Shown: positions 41,955-50,089 of the stretch, piece after piece
Layout: each line of letters opens with the position of its first letter
Position numbering within the stretch: position 1 is the stretch's first letter
NCBI GenBank assembly: GCA_015521085.1
Contig: WAOW01000005.1
Location: 186,001 to 250,000 of the forward strand
Direction of reading: 5' to 3'
Length of the DNA stretch: 64,000 nucleotides
Source of the DNA: Candidatus Thermodiscus eudorianus
GTDB lineage: Archaea; Thermoproteota; Thermoprotei_A; Sulfolobales; Acidilobaceae
The notes under the pieces: model-generated
Told to the model about the DNA's origin: nothing
Databases searched by the model: none
Seen by the model: only the letters and a program-made list of their open reading frames with translations
Translations under genes and position numbers: made by a program

Positions 41955-42215
41955 TTAGACTAGGCCGAGCTTCGACGCTAGTTCAGATGCGCTATATTCT
42001 CTAGCCAACTTGACATACGCTTTCTTCTCTCCCTTCGATGTGACCAGGGTCCTGACCTTCTCCACCTTGACACCGTATAACTGCTCTACAGCCCTCTTTA
42101 TATCGGGCTTGCTAGCCTCCATCCGGACGATCAGGGTTAGCGTGTTCTCATCTTCGAGAAGCCTCGAAGCCTTCTCGCTCATATGAATCCTAATGATAAC
42201 CTCCTCCGGCCTCAT
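41955..42215 (-). CDS. rpl23: Ribosomal protein uL23
   Basis: Large-subunit protein at the nascent chain exit, binding SRP and the translocon. 86 residues. [36 protein letters not shown] and [16 protein letters not shown] match archaeal uL23. Its ATG overlaps the uL4 stop by 4 nt (42212-42215). It is the last gene of the uL3-uL4-uL23 operon; uL2, the usual next gene, is not here but at 49373. Confidence 0.95.
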
Positions 42216-43027
42216 GGAGCAATCACCCTGAACCTAGCCTTTAACTGGTCAAGAGCACCCCTGGTAATCACAGTTAACCGGCCCGGCTCGCCACCTGGAG
42301 CCAAGTGTATCACGCCTACATTCCACGGCTCCGCAACGCTGACTCCAGGCAAGCCCTTGACTGACAGGGCAAAGGGGGACCTATGGTTTTCCACGATAAA
42401 GAGTATGCTGACCGGCTGTTTGTATCTCCTGCCACGCATCTTCCCCTTGCCGGCCCTCCATCTCTTACCAGATCTAGCTCTTAGCACATCATCATACACG
42501 CCGATCTTCTCCAGCAACTCCTTGGCTTGGGACACTTTAGATACGGCATCGAGTACGCCGCTATCGAGAATTACTGGAAGTGACTCAACGCTGAATCTGT
42601 GGCCTCGCCCTCTAACTAGGTCGACTATGGAAGTCGCGGCCAGAGCACTCATAGTCGCAATCCTCTTCTCGACGCGGTTTATTTCTTCATGAATCCTCTT
42701 CTCAACACGCGGTGGGTGCGCTAGCCTCCCACCCCTAGTCATGTTCACCAAGGCGGCCCTCATACTACCCCTGATTCTAGGTACCCTTGAAACCCCGTGG
42801 TGGGCTCCGAGGCTCCTGGCACTGGTTCTCTTACCGGCCATAGGATCTCTTCCCTTGGGCTGCAATTTTGCCGTGAACTCGCTGTAGTACGCCCTTCTTA
42901 TCAAATCCTTCCTAACGGGTACTCTAAACACGTCGGGGAGGGTGATCTCCTCCAGGACACTACCATTTACGTCATAAACGGGAGCCGATACGGGTTCCCT
43001 GAGATACAAGAACAAAGACGAATACAT
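42212..43027 (-). CDS. rpl4: Ribosomal protein uL4
   Basis: Archaeal/eukaryotic uL4, early-assembly protein of the 50S subunit with a loop lining the exit tunnel. [18 protein letters not shown] near the N-terminus, RQG-type loop [60 protein letters not shown], and [19 protein letters not shown]. 271 residues. GAGGTGAGG lies 5 nt before the ATG. Eleven nt after uL3. Confidence 0.96.
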
Positions 43028-43038
43028 GCTGCCTCACC

Positions 43039-44070
43039 TCAGTTACCCTGCTTCGAAGCCAGACTCACATAGACGATCTGAGGAGCCTTGACACCCATCT
43101 TCAAGTACCAGGTCGGCGGCCTGACGGGCCAGCGAAGCACCAGCGGTCTCTTCGGCGTGCCTGGTAGGCTACCAGCGATAATGGCATAGGGACCCTTAAC
43201 CACGCCATAGTGTAGGAACCCCCCGGCCGGCGTTATCTCAAAACCGTTTTCACCATACGCTAGTATCCTCTTGTTATACTCGGTTCTTCTGTGGTAGCCC
43301 ATTTGCCCAGCAGCTGGAATTTCCCACCATGTGCCCCTGCCGTGGCTTCTGGCTCCAGTCCGCCTGCTTCCTTTTCTATGTTTGTGCCATCTGGGTAGCT
43401 CCTTCACGCCCCACCTCTTAACCGGTCCCTGGAACCCCTTGCCCTTCGTCACACCAATTACATCCACTAACTGGCCCACACTGAATACGTCAGGGAACTT
43501 CAACTCTCCTCCAAGCTTCTTCGTTGCATACGAGAACAATGCGTTAATATCAGTGGTGCCGCCGAGTTTGACTTCGAGCAGGTCCGGCTTCTTCTTGCTA
43601 AGCCCGCCGGTTAGTTTCGGTTGAGTCGCGATTATGATCCGGAGCTCTCTTATACTGTCTAGTTTTGATTCGAGTTTTTTCAAGTTCTCTTCCTTAAACC
43701 CGCCAAGAGTCGGTATCTTCCTCCAGAGTTCTAACTGGCTGGGCGGCTCTGCCCATACCTCGCCTGTAGAATACATTCCGCGGTTAGGGTCGTACGCGTA
43801 GCCTCGGATAGCTAGTACGTAGACCGGTGGTACCTCGACTACAGTAGCGGGCACAAAGATCTCTTGTCCAAAGGTTGGGCTCCCGGCTCTATCGTCTATC
43901 ATGTAGAGATGCGTCATGCCAGCTTTGTAGCCGAGGAAGGCTAGTGGTTGGGGCTCCCCGGTTTCTATATCGGGCCATGTCTTGATGCGTGGAACTAGTC
44001 TAGAGGCTCTCTTTCTAGGCGAGTAGCCTAGGCTGCCTCTCCTTGGAGCACTGTGCTTTCTTGCTCCCAA
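43039..44070 (-). CDS. rpl3: Ribosomal protein uL3
   Basis: Binds near the peptidyl transferase centre and is central to early 50S assembly. The conserved N-terminus [20 protein letters not shown] follows the TTG at 44070 with GGGTG upstream; a GTG at 44079 would add three residues. [40 protein letters not shown] and GPAGQMG-like [15 protein letters not shown] are uL3 signatures. 343 residues. Downstream of the SPOUT methyltransferase gene. Confidence 0.96.
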
Positions 44071-44129
44071 TGCTAACACCCTTCAGCCTGAACAGTATCC
44101 TCTTCCAGACCCCCTCTAGCCAAGTCCCC

Positions 44130-44978
44130 CTACGGGTTATAAAGCCTCTGTGATTCGAGTGTGCTGTTTAGTATGGCTAGCGTCGCGTGTATTGCCTCCT
44201 CGGTTCTCACCGTCTTAGTTCCCTGCATTGGTATTGTGTTCAAGACGAGATCGTAAAGGTCTGGAGAGGCCTCGTCCACAACGCTCCCCGTGGGACCACC
44301 GAATACGACTAGAAAGCCTTTGCTATCCTCATATTCCTGAATTGCCTCTCGACTATAGCATTCACCTTTCTTGCTCGTACCTATGATGGTATAGCCATGG
44401 TCTCTGTAGCGGTCCAGGACACGTGGCAGGTCCGGGTTAGCTTCAACGCGGAATCCGGTGTAAAAGTCCGGGTCTGTCACACGCTCCAATAGTAATTTAT
44501 CTTCATCTATTATTCTAACTAAAATTCTTTTACCGGGTTTGGAGTTCCCTCTTAAGAGACCGTAACCATAGCTTCCGAGAAATACCCTACAGACGCCGCT
44601 TGTACACTCCTCCACTAAACCCTCCATAACCAAGTTCCTAGCGGGCCTACGCGGTATGTCATGAAGTGGAATTCTCAGCGGGGGTAGTAGACCTGCTGCC
44701 CGCAACTCGGGTAGGAGTGGGAAGAGCCTCTTCCTAAGGTAGGGTGGGGTCGAAATGTACTCTAACAGGAGCCTCAATAGTTTATAGTCTTTTTTACTAG
44801 AGAATTTATCTTTGTATATGATAACCTTGTCAACCCTATATAGGGCGGCTGCTCTAGCTATGACCCCAGCCTTCAGGGTTTTCAACTGTAAAGTCTCCTC
44901 AGTAGAGAGAACACTCGCCGCTACGGCTATGGCGATCGTATGCCTCCTCTTCCACGGGGGCCACCGAGAGCAAGGCAA
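44130..44978 (-). CDS. SPOUT RNA methyltransferase (COG2106/DUF171 type)
   Basis: SPOUT-fold methyltransferase with an OB-like insertion, related to human SPOUT1/C9orf114. TIAIAVAASVLS starts the fold; LKAGVIARAAALYRVDKVIIY is the next conserved block. The middle holds a beta-rich insertion (LVEECTSGVCRVFLGSYGYG), and the knot region reads FLVVFGGPTGSVVDEAS, then LNTIPMQGTKTVRTEEAI. The substrate in archaea is not established. It is a usual upstream neighbour of uL3 in archaea, suggesting rRNA as a target. Confidence 0.88.
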   Translation of the reverse strand: MPCSRWPPWKRRHTIAIAVAASVLSTEETLQLKTLKAGVIARAAALYRVDKVIIYKDKFSSKKDYKLLRLLLEYISTPPYLRKRLFPLLPELRAAGLLPPLRIPLHDIPRRPARNLVMEGLVEECTSGVCRVFLGSYGYGLLRGNSKPGKRILVRIIDEDKLLLERVTDPDFYTGFRVEANPDLPRVLDRYRDHGYTIIGTSKKGECYSREAIQEYEDSKGFLVVFGGPTGSVVDEASPDLYDLVLNTIPMQGTKTVRTEEAIHATLAILNSTLESQRLYNP

Positions 44979-45032
44979 ACCCTAGACCTCAACCAGCCCT
45001 CCAGGTAAAGAATGAGGGACATGCTGCCAGCC

Positions 45033-45134
45033 CTACTTCTTTTTCTTCTTATATCCACTTTTCGTTTTTACCTCTTCCTCTTCTTTCTTCTTCCCTTTCT
45101 CCATGAAGAGCGTAGTCCTCTGCCTCCCACCCAT
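45033..45134 (-). CDS. 33-residue lysine-rich microprotein at head of the uL3 operon
   Basis: ATG 45134 to TAG 45033 encodes a 33-residue protein: N-terminus MGGRQRTTLFMEKG, then a Lys/Glu stretch, ending SGYKKKKK. AGGTGGTGAGG is placed 4 nt before the ATG, one of the strongest ribosome sites in the window, and GTATATAA (45174-45181) can serve as TATA box. The MGG-basic-MEK start is reminiscent of the N-terminal tail of archaeal eS25, but the winged-helix body is absent. Pure composition could mislead; the regulatory signals are the main support. Confidence 0.6.
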   Translation of the reverse strand: MGGRQRTTLFMEKGKKKEEEEVKTKSGYKKKKK

Positions 45135-45137
45135 ATA

Positions 45138-45181
45138 GCCTCACCACCTATGATGTGTCTCCCCGGGACGGGGTTATATAC
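45138..45181. promoter_or_regulatory. Divergent promoter for the microprotein/uL3 operon and the PrpB-type lyase
   Basis: TTATATAC (45174-45181) reads as a TATA box on both strands. On plus, the lyase ATG at 45203 is about 22 nt downstream, fitting a leaderless transcript. On minus, the microprotein has a ~15-20 nt leader holding AGGTGGTGAGG (45138-45148). Both transcripts may share this one element. Confidence 0.45.
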
Positions 45182-45202
45182 AGTAGCAGTTCTCTATACT
45201 CA

Positions 45203-46162
45203 ATGAGGGTGTTGGAAGTGGCATTCTTATACTCGTCTCCGATAGAAGACCCCGGAAGCGTGCTCCGTAGGTTAATGAGAGAGAGGGATATAATAGTAGC
45301 ACCCGGTGTATTCAATCCAGCAGTAGCGTTACTCGTCGAGAGAATGGGTTTCGAAGCAGCATATCTCTCCGGTGCTGCACTAACTGGTAGCTTGGCAATG
45401 CCAGACCTGGGGCTGATCACCTTAACCGAGCTGGCCACATTTACTTCCTACATAACACGAGTAGTATCCATACCGATAATCGTAGACGCGGATACCGGTT
45501 TCGGAGAGGCCATTAATGTTCAACGAACTGTTAGAGAGCTGGAAGCTGTTGGTGCAGCCGCGATTCAAATCGAAGACCAGGTCCTACCGAAGAAGTGCGG
45601 ACACCTGACGGGCAAGAAGCTGATTCCAGCAGAGGATATGGTTAAGAAGATAGTAGCCGCCGTAGAAGCCAGGAAGAAGGAGACGGTGATTATAGCTAGA
45701 ACCGACGCCAGGGGCGTAGAGGGGTTAGAAGCGGCTATCGATAGAGCGAAACTCTACGTTGAGGCTGGAGCAGACGTTATATTCCCAGAGGCCCTAAAAA
45801 GCCTCGAAGAATTTAAGGAGTTCTCAAGAGCCCTACCCAACACGCCGCTACTGGCAAACATGACTGAGTTCGGCAAGACACCCTACCTAACAGTTGACCA
45901 GTTCAAAGAGGCCGGCTTTAAAATAGTCATATTCCCGGTAACAACCTTCAGATACGCTATGGGTGCTATAAGGGAGGCGTTGGAAGTATTAAGAAATAGT
46001 GGCACACAGAAACCCCTCCTAGAGAGGATGATGACCAGATGGGAGTTCTACGAGCTCATAGGCTATAAGGTCTATGAAGACAAGGATAGACAGATAGCTG
46101 AGAAAGCCGGGGAAATCGTCTCGAAACATAAGGGTTTCACAGACGGTGGAATAGCCGATTAG
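45203..46162 (+). CDS. 2-methylisocitrate lyase-like enzyme (isocitrate lyase/PEP mutase superfamily)
   Basis: PrpB-group TIM-barrel lyase. APGVFNPAVALLVERMGFEA and AYLSGAALTGS at the start, metal-binding VDADTGFGEA, IQIEDQVLPKKCGHLTGKK with the catalytic cysteine (KKCGH), and IARTDARGVEGLEAAIDRA all match PrpB more than isocitrate lyase. It would split 2-methylisocitrate into pyruvate and succinate. ATG 45203 suits the TATA box for a leaderless mRNA; 319 residues. No methylcitrate synthase is nearby. The Ced-like operon follows 59 nt later. Confidence 0.85.
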   Translation: MRVLEVAFLYSSPIEDPGSVLRRLMRERDIIVAPGVFNPAVALLVERMGFEAAYLSGAALTGSLAMPDLGLITLTELATFTSYITRVVSIPIIVDADTGFGEAINVQRTVRELEAVGAAAIQIEDQVLPKKCGHLTGKKLIPAEDMVKKIVAAVEARKKETVIIARTDARGVEGLEAAIDRAKLYVEAGADVIFPEALKSLEEFKEFSRALPNTPLLANMTEFGKTPYLTVDQFKEAGFKIVIFPVTTFRYAMGAIREALEVLRNSGTQKPLLERMMTRWEFYELIGYKVYEDKDRQIAEKAGEIVSKHKGFTDGGIAD

Positions 46163-46221
46163 ATCCGTTAACCACTCCCTCTCCTCTTCATATGGCCTTT
46201 TTCTACCAATAAGGGGAGTAA

Positions 46222-46470
46222 ATGGCGGTCCAAGACCTGCTAAACCTGATCCAAAATACCACCCAGCAGATTTCGATACTGGCGTGGGCGGTCTTCCTCT
46301 TAACCTGGAGCATTGGTTGGACTCTACGAGGCGCGCCAATACCCCTCGGTAGGCTAAAAAGGACGGGATCCAGCTTCATAGAGGACTCTGTCTGGGCGGC
46401 TCTCTGGCTCGCGCTCGGGTCGACGATATTCAGTCTGATAACATACTTGATACAAGTCATAACGAGTTGA
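46222..46470 (+). CDS. cedA1: CedA1-like two-helix pilin/membrane protein
   Basis: 82 residues: an amphipathic start (QDLLNLIQNTTQQISIL), then helix 1 LAWAVFLLTWSIGWTLRG, a short cytosolic turn with APIPLGRLKR, and helix 2 VWAALWLALGSTIFSLITYL. This hairpin of two helices with a basic turn is the CedA1/VirB2-like pilin layout. AAGGGGAG precedes the ATG. The stop overlaps the next ATG (TGATG). In Aeropyrum, CedA1 polymerises into a conjugation-like pilus used for DNA import. Identity rests on topology and context, not a strong sequence match. Confidence 0.65.
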   Translation: MAVQDLLNLIQNTTQQISILAWAVFLLTWSIGWTLRGAPIPLGRLKRTGSSFIEDSVWAALWLALGSTIFSLITYLIQVITS

Positions 46471-47855
46471 TGGAGATGGAGGTAGACTACCTGAGAGTCG
46501 CATATGAGCTCTCGATACTCTCATTCTACATCGGAGTCTTGATATACGCGCTTCCGATACCGTGGCCGCCATTGAAGCGTTGGGCCCCAAGATTAATGAT
46601 GGACGGGTTTTTCACAGCAGCTCTCGCAGCGCTATTCTACGGGTTGCTTTCAACAAGCGACTATATAGCCCGCGTGCTGGGTGGATCCTGGGAGTTGTTT
46701 CAGGGATGGCTCTCCACTGCTATAAGTACTTTAATATCGCTCAAGGGATTTGTCTTTGTTATAACGATGATCACTTCTCAATTCCCATTCGCCGGTGCAA
46801 TCGGATCGGCTCTAAGGCCGGTGGATAGAGTAGCCGATATAGGCTTCATAACCATAGCATGGATATCGGCCTTGATGATAATAGTGAGTAACTTCGGCAA
46901 AGCCCTCGCAGCTATCGGAATAGCGTTGTCGGCGGTTCCCTTCAGAATATCGCGAAGTGCTGGTGCATGGCTCCTATCCTTTGTCCTGGTCTTCAATGCC
47001 GGTCTGCAGGTACTCCCGTCCTTCCTCGCTACACTAGCCGAACAACCTGGGAGGCCGGATCCGTCGGAGCTAGAAGCGAACGGCCTCGCGATAGCGAAGC
47101 TACATGTCATCGACTACACCAACAGGAGTGTCGGGGGAGGAATCCTCTACATGTATAATAGTGCTGGGGACGAGTGGGCTAAGTATATAGTCTCTAATGG
47201 ATTAGCTTGGGACGACGACTTCGGTAGCACGGTTCCCGTGCCAAGCAGAACCGAGGTATATCTCGCGCTGGAAATCGATAACGTGCGCTTTAATCTAAAA
47301 CCCTACCCGCTCCACCCCTCTGATTACCAAGGTAATGGGACCCTATGGGAGGCGGTAGTTTCCAACAAGTACCTTGTATGGGTCGGGAACTACACTATAA
47401 TATACACTACAGGCGAGCCTCAAAGCTTCACCAGAGATGGCGACAACGTGTCTCTTACAGTGTATCTTAACAGCGGTGAATACATAGCATTTAGGACCCC
47501 CTCAGAGTGTAGCGTGTCAGTCAACCACTCCGACGGCCTAGAAAGCACTAGCTCCACCTGGGAATGGATGGATATGACGGGGACGTTAGTAAAGTATACA
47601 CCCAAGCATCCAGGCGAATACACGCTAAGTCTAACCATAGACACCTGCAATAGGGTCTCGCCGGACTTTGGAGACACGGAGAACTATCTGGAGAAGGTCG
47701 GGAAGCTCGGAACATACATGGACATAGACTTCATTTCATCCATCCTACTCTACTACACCACGATACCTCTACTCTACACCTTTGTTTTGTTCACGATAAC
47801 AACGGGCCTAGCCAGGATACTCGGGGGACGGGAAAGGCTCTTCATTAAGGTTTAG
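46470..47855 (+). CDS. cedA: CedA-like polytopic membrane protein with large external domain
   Basis: 461 residues. About six hydrophobic helices lie in the first 190 residues (YELSILSFYIGVLIYALPI, FFTAALAALFYGLL, LISLKGFVFVITMI, DIGFITIAWISALMIIVS, ALAAIGIALSAVPF, AWLLSFVLVFNAGLQVL). A ~230-residue beta-rich soluble domain with at least five N-x-S/T sites follows, and a last helix SILLYYTTIPLLYTFVLF near 440. The domain should be outside the cell. CedA is the channel candidate of the crenarchaeal DNA importer. Start ATG 46470 couples to cedA1; cedB begins 13 nt later. Confidence 0.65.
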   Translation: MEMEVDYLRVAYELSILSFYIGVLIYALPIPWPPLKRWAPRLMMDGFFTAALAALFYGLLSTSDYIARVLGGSWELFQGWLSTAISTLISLKGFVFVITMITSQFPFAGAIGSALRPVDRVADIGFITIAWISALMIIVSNFGKALAAIGIALSAVPFRISRSAGAWLLSFVLVFNAGLQVLPSFLATLAEQPGRPDPSELEANGLAIAKLHVIDYTNRSVGGGILYMYNSAGDEWAKYIVSNGLAWDDDFGSTVPVPSRTEVYLALEIDNVRFNLKPYPLHPSDYQGNGTLWEAVVSNKYLVWVGNYTIIYTTGEPQSFTRDGDNVSLTVYLNSGEYIAFRTPSECSVSVNHSDGLESTSSTWEWMDMTGTLVKYTPKHPGEYTLSLTIDTCNRVSPDFGDTENYLEKVGKLGTYMDIDFISSILLYYTTIPLLYTFVLFTITTGLARILGGRERLFIKV

Positions 47856-47868
47856 TGGGTGGACACTC

Positions 47869-49371
47869 ATGTGGTTTGAGGTTCTAATAGGAGGGATGGC
47901 AGTAGCATCACTCACATTAATAATCAAGAATACGAGGGCGACTAGAGACTTCGGAGTGAGTCTAAGTAGGGCGTCAATAGCGGATAGAAGGGGTGGTACC
48001 GAGGCGATAGTATTCGAGGGGAAGACCTACGAGCCAATCATATACTATTCCGAGGACCCGATACGCGATGAAACCGGCAGGCTGGGTGAGAGACTGGCCA
48101 ACCTGGCTCGGAGTGTAAGGATAAACGTTACATACATGACAAGCCTGTTCAGAGTGGATAAGGGCAGGCTACTCTCGTACCTGGAAGACCAGATAAACAA
48201 GGCTCAATTCGGATACCAGGCTACCGGCCACGTCAGATACGCTGAGAGACTACGCTTCCTCAAGAAACTATACAATGAGGTGGCTAGAACCCATACACCC
48301 TATACCCACAGGGTCCTCCTCGTGGTATGGAGCGAGAAGGGCGATACTGAGGCGCGTGCAAAAGCCGAAGCCTTCAAGTCGATGGTCGAGGCCGAAGCCG
48401 GGATTAGACTTGAGAGGGCCAAAGAGCCTCTATTGAAGGCTCTCCTACCCTCCACCAGCGAGGGACTGGGGACCATGCCGCCGTCTATCTTCGCTAGCAT
48501 TTATGACTCTCCCGGCGTCGTCCTCGGGAGAGACTCCGACGGCAGGCTAGTGGTCTTGGACTGGCCGAGGGATTTCGAGACGCACATAGGCGTCTTCGGC
48601 CCCACGGGTAGGGGTAAGACGGTACTGCTAAACGGTATAGCGTCACAGCTGGCTAGCAGGAGCGAATCAAGGCTAGACCCCTATATGGTAGCCGTAATAG
48701 ACCCGAAGGGCGACCTAGTAGCGATGCTCTCAGCACAGGCAACGGCTGTAGAAGTCTTAGAGCCCGGAGACTGTATACAAATACCAAGGATGGAGGGTTT
48801 AGCCGAGATATTATTGGAGTCTGTTTTCGAGAGCTATTCCTCCAAGAGCGTTAATGCGTGTGAGGGAAGCCTGCTCAGGCGAGGCTTAGTGGTCTTCGAC
48901 CTGTCGAGCCTTGCTAACGAGGATAGAGATGTGGCGGCGTCGCTTATATTGTCGAGCCTCGTGTTAGAGGCTAGCGAGGGGGATCTCCCCGGCAGGGTCG
49001 TGGTAATAATAGATGAGGCGTGGAGGCTGGCTATGAGTGGAGCCAAGCACCTGGTATGGGCTCTTAGAGAGGGTCGAAGTAGGAGACTCCACGTAGTATA
49101 TGCGACGCAGTCGCCCGAGGATCTACCAGATTCTGTGCTAAACAACACGGGGACCCTTATAGTGTTCGGCGGGTATACGAGGAGCTATACAGAGGCGGCC
49201 CGGAGACTCGGGCTTGACGATGCTAGACGCCTGCTGGAGATGCCGATCGGGACAGCTATGGTGAAAGTCAAAGACCTGCCGCCAACGGAGACTCGTGTAT
49301 TCGGATTCCACGAATACGTTAAAAAGGTGGAAGAGCAGAGTATCCCTGGATCGGACAGGGGAGTGAGCTAA
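47869..49371 (+). CDS. cedB: CedB-like HerA/VirB4-type ATPase
   Basis: 500 residues. An N-terminal membrane helix (FEVLIGGMAVASLTLII) anchors the protein; residues 30-230 form an N-terminal domain; Walker A is FGPTGRGKTVLLNG (about 243-250), Walker B VVVIIDEAWRL (about 378-388), and YATQSPEDLPDSVLNNTGT is the sensor/motif typical of VirB4/HerA ATPases. Membrane-anchored HerA-like ATPases of this size next to CedA energise DNA import in crenarchaea. GGGTGGA precedes the ATG. Its TAA is 1 nt from the uL2 TTG start. Confidence 0.8.
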   Translation: MWFEVLIGGMAVASLTLIIKNTRATRDFGVSLSRASIADRRGGTEAIVFEGKTYEPIIYYSEDPIRDETGRLGERLANLARSVRINVTYMTSLFRVDKGRLLSYLEDQINKAQFGYQATGHVRYAERLRFLKKLYNEVARTHTPYTHRVLLVVWSEKGDTEARAKAEAFKSMVEAEAGIRLERAKEPLLKALLPSTSEGLGTMPPSIFASIYDSPGVVLGRDSDGRLVVLDWPRDFETHIGVFGPTGRGKTVLLNGIASQLASRSESRLDPYMVAVIDPKGDLVAMLSAQATAVEVLEPGDCIQIPRMEGLAEILLESVFESYSSKSVNACEGSLLRRGLVVFDLSSLANEDRDVAASLILSSLVLEASEGDLPGRVVVIIDEAWRLAMSGAKHLVWALREGRSRRLHVVYATQSPEDLPDSVLNNTGTLIVFGGYTRSYTEAARRLGLDDARRLLEMPIGTAMVKVKDLPPTETRVFGFHEYVKKVEEQSIPGSDRGVS

Positions 49372-49372
49372 A

Positions 49373-50089
49373 TTGGGTAAACGGCTCAGGCAGCAAAGAG
49401 CAGGCAGGGGGACGCCGACATACCGCAGCCCAGGCCATATACACCCCGGGCCCGCCAAGTATCCGCCCCTTGCAGACTCTACCGTTAAGGGCAAGATCGT
49501 CGAGCTACTCCACGACCCAGGTCGCTATGTCCCGCTGGCAAGGATCGTGACGGAAGACGGCAAGGAGTTTCTAACACCAGCTGCCGAAGGCGTATACGTG
49601 GGGAAGATCGTAGAGATAGGCCCTGATGCCAAGCCCGATCCAGGCAACATAATGCCTATAGGCAATGTACCCGAAGGAACCATGGTATTCAATGTAGAGA
49701 TAGTCCCGGGCGACGGGGGCAAACTAGCCCGGCAGGCAGGAAGCTATGCCCTAATACTAGGCAGGGCTGGGAGCAAGACTAGGATACGCCTGCCCAGCGG
49801 CAAGGAGAAAGAGGTGCCAAATAAGGCCAGGGTAACAATAGGGATTCCGGCTGGAGCTGGAAGAGTAGAGAAACCGATTATGAAAGCCGGACTCGCATAC
49901 CACAAGTGGAAGGTAAAGGCTAGGAAATGGCCTAGAGTAAGAGGTGTCGCCATGAACGCCGTAAACCACCCATTCGGAGGCGGAAGCCACCAGAGGAAGA
50001 GCCACCCGTCAACCGTAGCCAGGGAGACGCCGCCAGGCCGGAAGGTAGGTCATATAGCGGCTAGGAGAACCGGTAGGAGAAAGAGATAG
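49373..50089 (+). CDS. rpl2: Ribosomal protein uL2
   Basis: Universally conserved 50S protein near the peptidyl transferase centre. GKRLRQQRAGRGTPTYRSPG at the N-terminus, RIVTEDGKEFLTPAAEGVYVG, MPIGNVPEGTMVFNVE, and the C-terminal GVAMNAVNHPFGGGSHQ with the essential histidine. 238 residues. TTG start sits 1 nt after the cedB stop, so it depends on readthrough or coupling from the Ced-like operon. In most archaea uL2 follows uL23; here those genes are 7 kb away on the other strand. Confidence 0.96.
   Translation: MGKRLRQQRAGRGTPTYRSPGHIHPGPAKYPPLADSTVKGKIVELLHDPGRYVPLARIVTEDGKEFLTPAAEGVYVGKIVEIGPDAKPDPGNIMPIGNVPEGTMVFNVEIVPGDGGKLARQAGSYALILGRAGSKTRIRLPSGKEKEVPNKARVTIGIPAGAGRVEKPIMKAGLAYHKWKVKARKWPRVRGVAMNAVNHPFGGGSHQRKSHPSTVARETPPGRKVGHIAARRTGRRKR

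Follow-up and report, generated by a model that had tools for sequence, protein, structure and literature searches.

A chromosomal cedA1-cedA-cedB operon of the Ced DNA-exchange type beside ribosomal protein genes in an Acidilobaceae genome

The Ced system of Sulfolobus and Saccharolobus comprises CedA, CedA1, CedA2, CedB, CedD and CedE, the last of these in Saccharolobus only; its genes are damage-induced and its hosts also carry Ups pili (PMC11868833). Thermoproteales contain the Ted system, in which TedA, TedB and TedC have three functions in common with Ced (those of VirB6, VirB4 and VirB2 types), but the parts of the two systems show no recognisable sequence similarity, and TedC has a cleaved signal whereas CedA1 has none (PMC9905601). 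Unlike bacterial conjugative type IV secretion systems, such as that of R388 (TrwK/VirB4), Ced has no relaxase or outer-membrane parts, and its direction is reported as import.

The locus described here was found in the window, a 64,000-base stretch that covers bases 186001-250000 of contig C5 in a genome of 1.52 Mb. It shares with Sulfolobus and Saccharolobus homologous CedA1, CedB and CedD, together with the channel part of CedA. In Sulfolobaceae, however, CedA is about 260 aa long and lacks the outer domain, and cedB is unlinked; in the other families most CedA proteins have about 450-530 aa. Aeropyrum pernix K1 has the same five-gene order as the window (lyase gene-cedA1-cedA-cedB-rpl2), a long CedA (452 aa) and a CedA1 that is 57% identical, although its CedB is diverged and shorter (461 versus 500 aa) and the gene gaps differ. 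The whole locus, positions 46222-49371, consists of three open reading frames on one strand, near-abutting or overlapping as the original prediction had described them:

46222..46470, + strand: cedA1, VirB2-like pilin, 82 aa, two hydrophobic helices (NF041797; PDB 8dfu_B)
46470..47855, + strand: cedA, VirB6-like polytopic channel protein, 461 aa, or 462 aa from a possible TTG start at 46467 (NF041796)
47049..47705, + strand: outer domain of CedA, residues ~194-412, beta-rich, two conserved cysteines
47721..47819, + strand: C-terminal membrane helix of CedA, residues ~418-450
47869..49371, + strand: cedB, membrane-anchored ATPase of the VirB4/HerA superfamily, 500 aa (NF041017, tree, fold)
48598..48621, + strand: Walker A of CedB, GPTGRGKT, residue 244
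49012..49026, + strand: Walker B of CedB, DEAWR, residue 382
45155..46162, + strand: methylisocitrate/isocitrate lyase-family gene, a neighbour outside Ced (TIGR02317, 421.9 bits, cut-off 354.4)
49373..50089, + strand: rpl2 (ribosomal protein L2), a neighbour outside Ced (Pfam PF03947)

The stop codon of cedA1 is overlapped by the ATG of cedA (TGATG), 13 bases separate cedA from cedB, a single base separates cedB from rpl2, and 59 bases lie between the end of the lyase gene and cedA1; these two neighbours had gone unmentioned in the original prediction. On the strand opposite to ced, positions 42212-44978 hold rpl3 and rpl4 together with a putative RNA methyltransferase gene (PF02598). Across 42212-50089, the RNA methyltransferase gene, the lyase gene and the three ced genes stand between rpl4/rpl3 on the minus strand and rpl2 on the plus strand. 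Searches of the window for tRNA and Rfam RNA found none. Related genomes conserve CedA1, CedA and CedB at the protein level, dN being much lower than dS wherever the latter could be estimated; they are thus real genes and not chance open reading frames. The operon is chromosomal, lying on a 418-kb contig with ribosomal genes on its flanks, and an origin from a mobile element was rejected, as no plasmid match was found for CedB (E 0.001) or CedA1 (E 0.01).

The identification of the 82-residue, two-helix protein as CedA1 was borne out. In a profile search it passed the curated model NF041797 (120.2 bits, cut-off 100), and it aligned without gaps over 76 residues, 43 of them identical (57%), with the A. 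pernix pilin, a CedA1 whose structure was determined by cryo-EM (PDB 8dfu_B; E 2.3e-28). Its hydrophobic stretches span residues 17-35 and 59-77, and the first of these aligns to the mature 8dfu pilin. A TedC-type pilin with a cleaved signal was rejected, since the window pilin matches CedA1 along its length. The CedA1 of the nearest relative is 86% identical, and the closest matches belong to metagenome-assembled genomes that bear the labels Thermodiscus, Thermoproteota or Acidilobaceae. Of 117 genomes of the order, 94 have a CedA1 above the cut-off; among 300 genomes sampled across the phylum, matches above it came from this order only. The locus confirms that outside Sulfolobus the Ced machine belongs to the standard chromosomal equipment of this order.

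The third protein has a single N-terminal hydrophobic helix, carries DUF87/HerA Pfam matches and scores weakly against the CedB model NF041017 (E 2.1e-12, 46.5 bits, cut-off 700). Both the Pfam matches and the low score would suit a repair-type HerA or a CedD, which would make the operon only partly Ced. Because the profile score was weak, a tree of 66 ATPase domains was built, in which one split (96/89) joins the window ATPase with Sulfolobaceae CedB and with the genes that follow cedA in other families and separates them from CedD and HerA. The Walker B motif of the window protein, DEAWR, is likewise of the CedB type, whereas CedD mostly has a DEAHN-type and HerA an EEAHI-type motif. A repair HerA was rejected, as the HerA clade (100/100) holds a different gene of this genome, which is located on G000:C4 and adjoins NurA (PF09376, 37.8 bits, cut-off 21). 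CedD was rejected as well, since tree and Walker B place the window ATPase with CedB and the genome has its own CedD elsewhere (G000:C2:1432-2412, 218.6 bits), inside the CedD clade and co-occurring with CedB. With both genes present separately, it is scarcely credible that the window ATPase is either of them, and the predicted membrane-anchored CedB, clear of the repair HerA group, holds. The AlphaFold model of CedB (pLDDT 77) had R388 VirB4 as its top fold match (8rtd/8rtb; E 1.5e-14, 13-14% identity); HerA structures were also good matches, as expected within one superfamily. CedA, CedB and CedD of this genome all fall below the curated equivalog cut-offs, which only Sulfolobaceae proteins pass. 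In family f6, CedB-like genes (L136, L139) were placed outside the CedB clade.

The second protein had been predicted to be CedA, a polytopic membrane protein with a large external domain and one C-terminal helix, and both profile and model agree with this. It matches NF041796 with E 5.9e-37 over residues 6-193 (127.6 bits, below the cut-off of 330), a model of 259 positions that covers short CedA only. Six hydrophobic stretches within residues 11-187 are followed by a beta-rich stretch of about 215 residues and one C-terminal helix, a topology seen also in the AlphaFold model (mean pLDDT 85), where the outer domain is beta-rich and of good confidence. A fold search with the full CedA model matched no solved VirB6; the best matches had low TM-scores, a bacterial pilin being among the weak ones, and the outer domain was accordingly assigned to no fold family.

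The outer domain of Acidilobaceae CedA, with its ~215 residues and two cysteines, evolves fast and is absent from the short Sulfolobaceae CedA. Each of 15 CedA proteins from relatives of the window has exactly two cysteines between the sixth and the last helix and none elsewhere, and in the window CedA the five N-glycosylation sequons all fall inside this domain. In all 11 pairs compared, its non-synonymous rate was higher than that in the membrane part, by about 1.4- to 3.5-fold; simple motifs served to delimit the domains, and some genomes occur in more than one pair. The rate remained below the synonymous one where this could be estimated. These features fit an extracellular domain, possibly disulfide-bonded, under weaker or more varied selection. 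The domain might be a partner-recognition or adhesion module that replaces the role of Ups pili outside Sulfolobus, so that the pore itself would help to select the mate, but partner recognition is one reading among several and a rather unlikely one.

A large outer domain that could be an adhesin, as the weak fold match to a bacterial pilin would allow, also bears on what the machine does. In this lineage it may be a type IV-like apparatus that serves mainly for export or for contact between cells and imports little or no DNA; in Sa. islandicus, CedA1 has a part in export too, and other Crenarchaea are reported to lack genes for Ups pili (PMC11868833). However, both CedB and CedD are kept in this genome, and in Sa. 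islandicus the two are required for import and dispensable for export (PMC11868833). A machine devoted chiefly to export or contact is therefore considered improbable.

Very probably, then, this chromosomal locus encodes a Ced (crenarchaeal exchange of DNA) system, a type IV secretion machine that has become domesticated and with which the cell takes up DNA from a partner. Leading to this reading are the passing score and 8dfu match of CedA1, the model match of CedA, the clade, DEAW motif and VirB4 fold of CedB, the presence of CedD and HerA-NurA in the genome, the gene order common with A. pernix, the confinement of CedA1 to the order and the lack of plasmid matches. Against it stand the sub-cut-off scores of CedA, CedB and CedD, the lack of a VirB6 fold match for CedA and that of a damage-response element. 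Following the functions described for the Ced components (PMC9905601; PMC11868833), CedA1 would polymerize, together with lipids of the membrane, into a pilus of the conjugation type; at its base CedA would form the membrane pore, and CedB, probably with CedD, would act as the ATPase driving DNA inward, most likely as a single strand; HerA-NurA would probably make that strand in the donor. Pilus formation is here inferred by analogy with A. pernix, and DNA import would be carried over from the genetics of Sulfolobus and Saccharolobus; no DNA-transfer experiment was found for the window's family.

The original prediction also implied that a single ced operon is a novelty when set against Sulfolobus, where cedB lies apart. 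The latter holds: cedB was not found near cedA1 in six sampled Sulfolobaceae, nor in families f2, f3, f5 and f6, in a search with the window's own CedB as query, which a very diverged neighbour could escape. Family f11 was equated with Sulfolobaceae on the ground that its CedB and CedD score above the cut-offs, as among control genomes only those of Sulfolobus acidocaldarius do. The implied novelty was not upheld, as 37 of 60 loci (11 families) have cedB less than 5 kb from cedA1, including 16 of 16 of the window's family. A. pernix is among them: the CedA1 of locus L062 is identical to the 8dfu chain over 76 aligned residues, and L062, which has the gene order of the window, was therefore taken as A. 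pernix K1. A single operon is what several non-Sulfolobaceae families usually have, and it is not new; the layout of Sulfolobus, with a short CedA, cedB apart and damage control, does not represent the general case.

The ribosomal neighbours recur as well. Of the 60 loci, 37, from 7 of the 11 families, have rpl2 or rpl3 within a stretch of about 13 kb around cedA1, in two main layouts, cedB-rpl2 or cedB-methyltransferase gene-rpl3-rpl2. Although related genomes are not independent, the occurrence in seven families suggests that the linkage is old. Two papers on Ced make no mention of it (PMC9905601; PMC11868833). Together with the outer domain of CedA, it offers leads on how partners are chosen without Ups pili and on the timing of DNA exchange. 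In the window, expression of ced is probably tied to rpl2 and steady as opposed to damage-triggered.

The DNA damage response element ANTTTC (PMC9738581) is absent from both strands upstream of cedA1 (46000-46222) and upstream of the lyase gene (44979-45200), so the absence first reported stands for the window. Beyond it the motif does occur in another non-Sulfolobaceae family: at -100 to -36 of cedA1 it was found in 10 of 10 f9 genomes, where 1.2 were expected and none of 500 shuffles reached ten, and in 3 of 15 f1 genomes (1.5 expected), positions being approximate since start codons were picked by length, and the f9 genomes being mutually related. Across families f9 and f10 it was seen upstream of cedA1 in 12 of 12 loci (L102-L113). 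This suggests damage control of Ced outside Sulfolobaceae in these two families. The missing element is a trait of regulation and no component of the machine, and it does not exclude the window from Ced.

One further ATPase of the HerA/VirB4 superfamily, of about 630-700 aa, is located some 0.6-14 kb from cedA1 in families f4, f7, f8 and f9; it was not found in the window's genome. Examples are L100 9565-11490 (- strand) and L148 565-2523 (+ strand), and others lie near ced in G007, G028, G065 and G083. Two examples placed in the tree (L100, L148) stand beside CedD, and this protein is a possible candidate for the export ATPase of Ced.
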